The notes beneath the pieces are model-generated. The model worked only from the letters and a program-made list of their open reading frames with translations, searched no databases and was not told the DNA's origin. 62,594 nucleotides of DNA, from assembly GCA_024636315.1 (NCBI GenBank), contig JAGXHJ010000033.1:1-62594 (forward strand). Reading direction: 5' to 3'. The stretch comes from Methylophaga sp. (lineage in GTDB: Bacteria; Pseudomonadota; Gammaproteobacteria; Nitrosococcales; Methylophagaceae). Below, piece by piece: positions 1 to 62,594 of the stretch (position 1 is its first letter; each line of letters starts with the position of its first letter). Made by a program: the position numbers and the translations under genes.

Positions 1-135
1 TGCTCGATCTGAGTGATATTTTTTAATTGGTCATTGATGGTTTCAATAATAAAGCGCCGTGATAACATCGCTCTATCCCACGCAGAAAGGAGTTTTGCTT
101 TCATGTTCTTTTTGACATTGGTGACAAGTTCGACA
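1..135 (-). pseudogene. IS982-family transposase fragment
   Basis: The reverse strand reads without a stop through a stretch containing KKNMKAKLLSAWDRAM and then IIETINDQLKNITQIEH. This matches the C-terminal part of IS982-type transposases, where a K(K/R)NMK segment is followed by the IETxNDxLKNxxQIEHxRHRS block. The fragment runs off the left edge of the window, so its C-terminus is not visible. Going upstream the frame loses family resemblance near position 135 and meets a TAA near 186, so the N-terminal half with the first catalytic acidic residues is missing. It cannot encode an active enzyme from this window. Family assignment is by motif memory only. Confidence 0.6.
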
Positions 136-158
136 CCTTTAAAAAAATCAAAGGTGTC
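132..158. repeat. Perfect 9-bp inverted repeat at the edge of the IS fragment
   Basis: Arms GACACCTTT (132-140) and AAAGGTGTC (150-158) surround an A-rich 9-base loop. It sits where the transposase similarity ends. It could be an old intrinsic terminator or a palindrome at the IS junction; no T-run follows on the plus strand. Confidence 0.5.
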
Positions 159-190
159 AGACTCGATTGATTTAGTCCAACTTTAATTAG

Positions 191-226
191 ATACCACCCT
201 CTCAGTTGAAAGGGTGGTATTTTTTT
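191..226 (+). terminator. Rho-independent terminator
   Basis: A perfect 10-bp stem (ATACCACCCT, 191-200; AGGGTGGTAT, 211-220) with a 10-base loop is followed on the plus strand by a run of six Ts. The orientation suits a plus-strand transcript entering from the left. It may also help end the minus-strand kinase transcript, whose stop codon is at 232-234, although the T-run is poor on that strand. Confidence 0.75.
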
Positions 227-231
227 GCGGA

Positions 232-1164
232 TTATAATTTTCTATTAAATGACTGCTCAAATCGTTCTGCAAATTCTTCAGCAGTAAAACTATGATTTTG
301 CGTACCATGATGTTCGATTTTAATGGCACCTAATAGCGATGCAATCCGGCCAGTAGTTTCCCAATCTTTACCATGCATGATGCCGTGGATTAAACCGGCA
401 CGATAGGCGTCGCCACAACCCGTCGGATCGGCGAGTTTTGAGGTTTTTGCTGATGGAATGTCTAAGCGTTTACCATCAGTATAAATATGAGAACCTTCAC
501 CGCCACGAGTGATGCTGCGTGCTTCAACCTGTTCGGCAATTTCATGTGGTGATAAGCCAGTACGATCTTGGAACAGTTGAGCTTCATAATCATTTAAGGT
601 GATGTAGGTGGCTTGTTGGGTAAAACGCATTAAATCTTCACCATTAAACATCGGTAAACCTTGACCTGGATCGAAGATAAATGGAATACCTGCTTCATGG
701 AGTTGTTGAGCGTGTTGGATCATACCATCGCGGCCGTCAGGCGAGACAATGGCCAAAGTGATGTCTTTTGCTTCACTGATCTTTGTTTCATGAGCTAGGT
801 TCATTGCGCCGGGATGAAACGCAGTGATTTGGTTATCATTCATGTCGGTCGTGATAAAGGCTTGAGCAGTGTAATTACCTTTTTTAACATGAACATGACG
901 ACGACTTATTTGATGTTGGTCCATCCATGTTGCATAACTAGTAAAGTCGCTACCCACGGTGCCCATTGGTACCGGCTCATCTCCCAGCAATTTTAAGTTA
1001 TAGGCGATGTTACCTGCGCAGCCACCAAATTCACGACGCAACTCTGGCACTAAAAATGCCACATTCAACATATGTACTTTGTTGGGCATGATGTGGTTTT
1101 GAAATTGGTCTGGAAACACCATAATGGTGTCGTAGGCGAATGAGCCACAAATGAGTGCTGACAT
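232..1164 (-). CDS. PfkB-family carbohydrate (ribokinase/adenosine kinase-like) kinase
   Basis: Predicted cytoplasmic ATP-dependent sugar or nucleoside kinase of 310 residues. It opens with the PfkB strand ALICGSFAYDTI, has the GG motif region EFGGCAGNIAYNLKLLG that contacts substrate and lid, and ends with the second PfkB signature DPTGCGDAYRAGLIHG, which carries the anion-hole glycines and the catalytic Asp. The frame is open upstream to 1227, but the start at 1162-1164 is preferred: AAGGAT lies at a suitable distance upstream, the protein then begins as family members do, and it avoids overlapping rnd. It follows rnd by 4 bases, so the two are probably co-transcribed. The substrate cannot be told from sequence; adenosine, ribose or another sugar are all possible. 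Confidence 0.88.
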   Translation of the reverse strand: MSALICGSFAYDTIMVFPDQFQNHIMPNKVHMLNVAFLVPELRREFGGCAGNIAYNLKLLGDEPVPMGTVGSDFTSYATWMDQHQISRRHVHVKKGNYTAQAFITTDMNDNQITAFHPGAMNLAHETKISEAKDITLAIVSPDGRDGMIQHAQQLHEAGIPFIFDPGQGLPMFNGEDLMRFTQQATYITLNDYEAQLFQDRTGLSPHEIAEQVEARSITRGGEGSHIYTDGKRLDIPSAKTSKLADPTGCGDAYRAGLIHGIMHGKDWETTGRIASLLGAIKIEHHGTQNHSFTAEEFAERFEQSFNRKL

Positions 1165-61322: not shown

Positions 61323-61826
61323 TTATTCAGTTGCACGCTTATTCTGAGCATTGAGGGCTTGTTGATCTTTGAGACCATAAAAGCTACGTAGATGGATATC
61401 GCGTTGTGGAAATGGAATTTCCAGATTATGGCGAGCAAGAGCGGTATCGAGCTCCCATCTTTAGGTGGCTATTACGCGTCCTGGCAATTTAACAGCGGCG
61501 GGTGTTAGCCAGACAATCAGTTCAAAATTAAGACTACTATCGCCAAAGCCGGTCATCCAAACTTGGGCCTTATGTTTATCATTAGTACTTTTTAAAGTGT
61601 AATCAACGGCATCTGCCGCTTCTAAAGCCGCTAGTTTTACTTCGTCTTTATCTGAGCCATAAGCTACACCAAAGGGAATATGAACACGGCGGAATGATTC
61701 ATACATTGTCCAGTTTGTGACTTGACCATTAACAAAATCAGAGTTAGGTATAAAATATCGAAGTTATCGTTGGTCACAATATGGGTGCTACGGATATTAA
61801 AAGGATTTACTGCCACCAATCTATCT
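61323..61826 (-). pseudogene. Broken mechanosensitive channel (MscS-type) gene
   Basis: The translated remains cover the C-terminal half of a MscS-family channel: NIRSTHIVTNDNFDI, then IPNSDFVNGQVTNWT, RRVHIPFGVAYGSDKDEV, GFGDSSLNFELIVWL and EIPFPQRDIHL. Two lesions are visible. A one-base loss near 61750-61756 shifts the frame between NFDIL and IPNSDF. A TAA at 61461-61463 interrupts the frame where a Tyr is usual (VIAT-stop-RWELDTAL); the downstream sequence stays in frame to TAA at 61323-61325. The channel's membrane domain is absent upstream of about 61826. The gene is non-functional. Confidence 0.85.
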
Positions 61827-61959: not shown

Positions 61960-62594
61960 TTATTTTGAAGAAAAAACCTGTTTCAATAATTCTGTCGTTC
62001 TTGCGGCAGGATTTTCACGAATTTTTTTCTCTTCAGCCGCGATCATAGTGAATAGGCCATTTAACGCTTGTTCGGTCACATAGTCTGGCAAATCAAGATT
62101 AACATCTTTGCCCACTAGCGGTAATGTAGCGACTTTTCCGGTTAAGTCATTGTAGTATTTGGTGGTCCCGACTTGGTTTAAAGATGTATCAATAGCCGGT
62201 CTAAATAAGCCCGTTAATTGCTCTGTTGTTTGCGCTTTGAAGTATTCGGTCGCGGCATTATCTGGGCCTTGTAAAATGGCATTAGCGTCTTTAATACTCA
62301 TGTTCTTAATAGCGTTGACAATGATATTGGTTGCCTCTGGCGCTGCTTTTTCAGCTGCGTGATTCATACTTTGTTCAAACACATCGGCCTGACCACCTAA
62401 GCCAAACTTTCGCATTAAGCCACTGACTTGTTGTAGCTCTGGAGGCATAGCAATCGACGCACTACATGGAACGATGCGATAGCGAGTAAGTAGTGCAAGC
62501 CCTCCGTAGGGACTGGTAATAACAGCAGCTTTCGTAGCGCAGCGAAGAATAGTGCAGTTATTACATACTCGGCCCGTCAGTCGTTTGAGAGCCA
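61960..62594 (-). CDS. DUF4197 protein, N-terminus replaced and open at the window edge
   Basis: The C-terminal ~165 residues match DUF4197 (PPELQQVSGLMRKFGLGGQADVFEQSMNHAAEKAAPEA..., SIKDANAILQGPDNAATEYFKAQT). Family members are about 220-240 residues with a signal peptide and an N-terminal segment before the PPEL block. Here the frame upstream of about 62458 reads into a Cys-rich, unrelated stretch (GRVCNNCTILRCATKA, VITSPYGGLALLTRYR) and is open to the window end. Either it starts internally at the ATG at 62448 without a signal peptide, or it is a fused or disrupted gene. Confidence 0.6.
   Translation of the reverse strand, partial: ALKRLTGRVCNNCTILRCATKAAVITSPYGGLALLTRYRIVPCSASIAMPPELQQVSGLMRKFGLGGQADVFEQSMNHAAEKAAPEATNIIVNAIKNMSIKDANAILQGPDNAATEYFKAQTTEQLTGLFRPAIDTSLNQVGTTKYYNDLTGKVATLPLVGKDVNLDLPDYVTEQALNGLFTMIAAEEKKIRENPAARTTELLKQVFSSK
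62459..62590. repeat. Hairpin-rich element joined to the DUF4197 gene
   Basis: The stretch holds nested inverted repeats: CCCT/AGGG (62500-62503 and 62508-62511), TAATAAC/GTTATTA (62517-62523 and 62557-62563) and an inner CTTTCG/CGAAG pair. It is more GC-rich than its surroundings and begins where DUF4197 similarity stops. It resembles a short palindromic mobile or dispersed repeat, but only one copy is visible in this window. Confidence 0.4.

Follow-up and report, generated by a model that had tools for sequence, protein, structure and literature searches.

The palindrome-associated transposable elements (PATEs) of Haloquadratum walsbyi are described as elements of non-coding length that lack terminal inverted repeats, carry palindromes near their ends, cause no target duplication, take their targeting oligonucleotide from outside the element and occur also as core-deleted copies (PMC3119063). 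The same source, outside its definition table, gives the end palindromes of PATEs as similar to those of an IS605-type transposon; it depicts the left and right hairpins of homogeneous PATEs as alike, and describes IS605-type transposons as moving without target duplication (PMC3119063). Some cyanobacteria and Salmonella are likewise named as carriers of PATEs (PMC4853749). For the IS200/IS605 group, subterminal hairpins recognised on single strands and cleavage sites beside a short sequence are reported (PMC6006769, PMC8266576), and RAYT cleavage is placed at CT or CA (PMC8266576). REP and REPIN sequences are given as 20-40 bp long (PMC3733652), and the RPEs of Rickettsia as in-frame palindromic insertions of about 150 bp (PMC10969869). 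The sequence at the right edge of the DNA considered here, the window (the whole stretch of 62,594 nt that was analysed), is probably one end of a single non-autonomous mobile element of the PATE type, some 248 nt in length.

The window spans the whole of contig C57 of the source genome, which comprises 2.36 Mb in 113 contigs at 88% completeness, so that its right edge is a contig end rather than an arbitrary cut. C57 ends inside the dispersed element: its last 31 nt are repeated exactly as the first 31 nt of a second contig, C38, which continues with element sequence up to nt 139 and then with the minus-strand N-terminal part of the same DUF4197 gene. The coordinates of all features are compiled in the table. 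The initial annotation had the DUF4197 similarity ending near 62458; the exact junction, 62454|62455, is set by an empty site in a close relative (G006). At this locus of G006 (L031) the C57 flank aligns to positions 1442-1992 with 94.0% identity and the C38 flank from position 1993 with 94.7%, i.e. on adjacent bases, and the insertion between AGCAAT|ATGAAT is thus a precise one without target duplication; in comparison with G006 no base was lost or duplicated. The right-edge sequence is also richer in G+C, as had been remarked, with 0.514 in 62455-62594 versus 0.418 in the gene part, the former value being reached by 1.7% of 140-nt windows. In an assembly this fragmented, with a contig ending inside a repeat, one may think of a chimeric contig end that joined an unrelated repeat to the gene. 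However, two separate contigs put the two ends of the element at exactly adjacent bases of the G006 gene, and the left junction has the C at position -4 that is found in other copies; assembly chimerism was rejected on the adjacency of both flanks in G006 and deserves very little credence.

Features of the interrupted DUF4197 locus and of the element (coordinates refer to the window unless contig C38 is named)
Feature	Position	Strand	Basis
Downstream (C-terminal) part of interrupted DUF4197 gene	61960..62454	-	PF13852 match
Target-side CAAT directly 5' of the insertion, outside the element, C at -4	62451..62454	+	C at -4 in 20/21 left junctions; present in G006 empty site
Left 140 nt of dispersed palindromic element	62455..62594	+	Copies in source genome; C38 overlap; full-length copy C3:14575-14822
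Left-end hairpin GCACTAC...GTAGTGC, 4 nt from left end	62459..62496	+	Helix 1 of consensus structure
Inner hairpin GTAATAAC...GTTATTAC, central branched domain; compensatory A-T/T-A change among copies	62516..62564	+	Copy comparison
Remainder of element (full length 248 nt)	C38 nt 32-139		Exact 31-nt overlap with C57
N-terminal part of DUF4197 gene	C38 nt 140-406	-	DUF4197 profile match

The DUF4197 gene of G006 is uninterrupted, with an open frame of 264 aa, and joining the C57 and C38 flanks without the element yields a 264-aa open frame, equal in length to that of G006. PF13852 matches the open frame of the window from residue 46 only, at profile positions 39-198 of 199, and the N-terminal half on C38 (MTNTHKF...TNQLIH) occupies profile positions 2-39, the two half-genes meeting at position 39. 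By eye, this N-terminal half starts with an apparent signal peptide. Beyond 62594, where the missing signal peptide was to be looked for, this end of the gene is found past the element on C38, and the idea that the repeat had replaced it is to be abandoned. The upstream half extends over 104 codons to a stop inside the element, and the frame of the downstream half stays open through most of the element and meets two stops near its far end, before leaving it. The insert of 248 nt is no multiple of 3, each half-gene is read in a frame of its own and runs into stops, and the DUF4197 gene is thus split. The gene is likely to be inactivated, since its only likely products would be a short N-terminal piece and a C-terminal one devoid of the signal peptide. 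In the vicinity, the DUF4197 gene is adjoined by the remnant of an MscS-type channel (61461-61706, minus strand; PF21082), an 81-aa C-terminal fragment.

The frame does remain open to the end of the window, as first annotated, because the contig stops in the middle of the element; by itself this carries little weight, since 3,291 of 17,846 sampled 46-codon stretches of the window (18.4%) are free of stops. The open frame through these 140 nt, together with the existence of in-frame palindromic insertions in Rickettsia, had suggested an RPE-type insertion that gives a longer functional protein. Such a reading is at odds with an insert of 248 nt and with N- and C-terminal halves in different frames, each with stops; furthermore, among ten loci with both flanks (the left flank being shorter than 500 nt at two of them) a coding frame is broken well inside at the DUF4197 locus only. 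At the C46/C1 locus the junction lies 36 nt from the open end of a 510-aa frame, and at the C30 locus the frames amount to 100 and 75 aa only. Provided that the C57-C38 link is right, an in-frame fusion at the DUF4197 locus is refuted, and the RPE-type reading is most improbable.

The surmise that the right edge belongs to a dispersed palindromic repeat with further copies in the genome was borne out by a search with a 155-nt query, which matched 22 places in the source genome, a few of them representing two pieces of one copy. With the full-length copy on C3 as a 248-nt query at least 17 matches were obtained, 13 of the 26 first-look candidates having been scored. A later query added one right-end copy on C63 (L208:870-1004); its first 113-119 nt are missing, which may reflect truncation or an effect of assembly, and the bases before it, ...TTCAAT, likewise have C at -4. 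Pairing of contig ends points to about 16 insertion loci in the source genome. Four of 58 other genomes gave matches, namely G006 and G021 (full-length and deleted copies), G001 (a short piece) and G013 (37 nt only), and a family-wide search returned the same four among 56 other genomes; clear copies reside in two congeneric genomes, G006 and G021. At the three testable corresponding places in G006 (C57/C38, C61 and C93) the element is absent. An exact 20-base pattern of the element occurred in a collection of genome contigs in one MAG, C14-03 (a gammaproteobacterium), on three contigs, in a scan from which own or near records may have been left out; the exact pattern was not found in viral contigs, and sequence searches did not find the element in phages or plasmids. 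A literature search, by topic and not by sequence, yielded no published record of this repeat.

On C4 of the source genome (L026:6429-6615) two partial copies of the element stand head to head, one apparently inserted in the other. On C56 (L025:1581-1633) the element is directly adjoined by a 53-nt dispersed repeat, which four of five relatives searched were also seen to match. On contig C28 of G006 (L104:3523-3879) a 90-nt terminal-only copy overlaps the end of a truncated 3'-5' exonuclease frame (RNase D-like, PF01612), possibly a second gene interrupted by this element family.

The left end of the element reads CGACGCAC and the right end CTCGCTGG (reverse complement CCAGCGAG). In the better copies the ends are sharply defined, with CGMCGCACTACATGGAACG on the left and CTCGCTGG or close variants on the right, and inspection by eye of 22 left-end and 18 right-end rows revealed no terminal inverted repeats. 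Full-length copies measure 248-250 nt and deleted forms 90-190 nt; they are non-coding and too short for a transposase. All but one of the 21 left junctions (20 of 21; binomial probability about 5e-13, for a position that was noticed in the table first and then counted) carry a cytosine at position -4, the lone exception being a decayed left-end-only copy in G021, and T is found at -1 in 12 of the 21. The right flanks displayed no preference comparable to this C at -4, and the right end CTGG itself also has C at -4. The 21 junctions leave aside the diverged G006 copies C1 and C9 with unclear ends, the 5'-truncated C63 and the right-end-only copies C38, C1, C109 and G001; C52b and C7 were counted as one junction because C7, by eye, appears to continue C52, and for C29 and G006b, which are decayed, the left boundary was placed by hand from the alignment.

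The C61 locus provided a second exact empty site in G006, with no duplicated base, and C93 a third that differs by the length of a T-run only (5 vs 4 T). The C93 copy (L110:749-1030) has a terminator-like hairpin (GGGGCAG...CTGCCCC) immediately on one side and this T-run immediately on the other. Two further loci were without a usable empty site in G006: the two flanks of C56 match different contigs, and at C52a an unmatched stretch surrounds the element. Six core-deleted copies (C66, C56, C30, C29, G006b and G021b) have lost 58-158 nt and kept both end regions, with decayed ends in C29 and G006b; both arms of the left hairpin are retained in five of the six, C29 being without the 3' arm. The right flank of the C30 copy (L029, about 1550-1582) reads ...CGTCATTCCCGTGGAAA, which resembles a CGTC-tagged (dRS3-like) REP.

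Inverted repeats had been recognised at the right edge from the start, and they are present at 62459-62465/62490-62496 and 62516-62523/62557-62564. The fold of nine near full-length copies comprises a hairpin at the left, a branched domain in the centre and, at the right, a long hairpin, which closes 2 nt from the end and whose outer helix is the weakest (87.8% of cells paired). Two-sided changes occur in 10 of 77 pairs, a number reached in none of 500 shuffles, and the same holds for the number of two-sided cells, the percentage paired and the covariation score; the fifth measure, further pair types, was not above shuffles (304 of 500 as high), and in all such comparisons one should recall that related sequences can beat shuffles without any structure. 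In slid controls two-sided changes were seen in 1-4 pairs, and the covariation term of RNAalifold was slightly unfavourable (+0.83 kcal/mol). The 140 nt of the window, folded alone, have z values of -1.10 as DNA and -1.04 as RNA, 29 of 200 shuffles being as good each time, and a repeat search of this stretch at default settings listed no inverted pair. Isolated folding being unremarkable, it is the comparison of copies that argues for the structure. The consensus fold is stronger on the plus strand (-58.8 kcal/mol) than on the minus strand (-41.8 kcal/mol). Single copies cover plus-strand z values from -2.6 to +1.1, one diverged copy folding no better than shuffles on either strand; seven of the nine copies have their lower z on the minus strand, and either strand may be the one that folds.

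Compensatory changes among copies, a stronger plus-strand consensus and a copy placed between a terminator-like hairpin and a T-run would also suit a repeat kept as a structured RNA or as a regulatory element (terminator, mRNA stabiliser) instead of selfish DNA. On the other hand, single-stranded DNA folded for a transposase would leave the same covariation, the plus strand is not favoured when measured against shuffles, the repeat is absent at three testable places of G006, and one insertion breaks a gene. Rfam searches drew a blank for the element itself, with two sub-threshold hits beside the C52 copy, and a known RNA family was rejected for want of a match. A function as RNA or regulatory signal is accordingly regarded as improbable.

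Turning to the mode of movement, the lack of terminal inverted repeats, the hairpins near the ends, the compensatory changes, the core-deleted copies and the C at -4 fit a PATE, and unlike hairpin ends, the lack of duplication and a preferred 5' base that recurs at the right end are marks of IS200/IS605-type single-strand transposition. The moving form would then be a folded single strand, with the replication fork as a possible site, and an IS200/IS605-like (HUH, Y1) transposase acting in trans would cut it after CNNN at the left end and after CTGG at the right. As no transposase gene with the ends of the element was found, this enzyme can only be inferred. Single-strand transposition leads one to expect a strand bias, and at 11 of 15 loci of the source genome the GC skew is positive on the strand of the element (one-sided binomial 0.059). 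The same sign was seen at five longer-flank copies in G006 and G021, so that 16 of 20 are obtained together (one-sided binomial about 0.006 by hand), a count in which two G006 copies share one measured stretch and GC skew serves, post hoc, as a proxy. Another two copies, whose flanks are 1.3-1.5 kb long, were oriented 1 to 1, and the orientation bias is weak altogether. The 15 loci do not include C109, which probably belongs to C3 or C59 as its right side. In the skew count the junction of C78 was placed some 37 nt too far to the right; this hardly affects the skew, and the left-junction count uses the flank from the alignment.

The source genome encodes two RAYT-like Y1 proteins (C74 and C56), one above and one just below the NCBIfam cut-off, and no copies of the element flank their genes. 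The proposal that these genes mobilise the element as their REP was rejected, the element not flanking them. Comparison of the element ends with 20 Y1 loci of the genus, some of them overlapping, gave a best E of 0.22, a sample next to which an unsampled or unassembled partner may exist; no autonomous element with these ends was found, and the examined part of the 8 kb locus around the left-end-only copy of G021 held ordinary genes only and no autonomous copy. A different palindrome, AACCCAACCTAATATTATGTAGGTTGGGTT, lies beside the RAYT gene on C74 (L120:539-691) and on contig C4 of G006 (L182), and the region holding the RAYT appears twice in G006, 2.9 kb apart.

That these ends were met at none of the Y1 loci compared also leaves room for another duplication-free enzyme, be it IS110-like and RNA-guided, a serine recombinase, or of the rolling-circle IS91/Helitron type. 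An IS110-family transposase gene is present on C56 of the same genome, and the right end, with CTGG after a small hairpin, is reminiscent of Helitrons, which start with TC and end in a hairpin and CTRR. IS110 elements, however, use an extended target matched by a guide RNA, whereas nearly identical copies of the element stand in unrelated targets that share only the C at -4, and the T of a Helitron-like start is target sequence in both exact empty sites. Such an enzyme in place of a Y1 transposase is an unlikely solution, if one to be kept in mind. Within the favoured single-strand reading, it is conceivable, and advanced here with much reserve, that in this lineage a system whose target is nearly free, its one constraint being a C three bases ahead of the cut (CNNN|), moves a large folded element of three domains, with an enzyme that does not travel along and maybe is no standard IS200/IS605 transposase.

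The odd end of the DUF4197 gene is explained in this way as a mobile-element insertion, and the locus serves as a warning that false gene fusions arise where contigs end inside such repeats. Should the single-strand mechanism be borne out, the family would add to the PATE-like elements a case from bacteria in which empty sites are clean and the target is nearly free, and would be useful for finding the enzyme that moves it.

In comparison with known systems, the element shares with the RPEs that it is a dispersed palindromic repeat inside a gene, but it is larger and not in frame, and the gene is broken. Like REP and REPIN sequences it is palindromic, non-coding and possibly mobilised by a Y1 enzyme; unlike them it has 248 nt, and the RAYT-like genes of its genome are not flanked by it. 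Subterminal hairpins and the lack of duplication are common to the element and to IS200/IS605 members such as IS608 and ISDra2; it differs in that it contains neither tnpA nor tnpB and no autonomous relative was found, and its target is much looser than the 4-5 nt sites of IS608 and ISDra2. The agreement with the PATEs includes the absence of terminal inverted repeats, palindromes near both ends, insertion without duplication, a length too short to code, a targeting sequence that lies outside the element and core-deleted copies. In contrast to the Haloquadratum PATEs, the host is a gammaproteobacterium, the likeness considered being one of traits; the left and right hairpins are dissimilar, the target consists of one conserved base, the structure is larger and branched, and no related IS605-type transposon was found among the 20 Y1 loci of the genus. 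It is for this missing link to an IS605-type transposon that the term PATE-like is preferred. Thus, the element is PATE-like and represents a new family.
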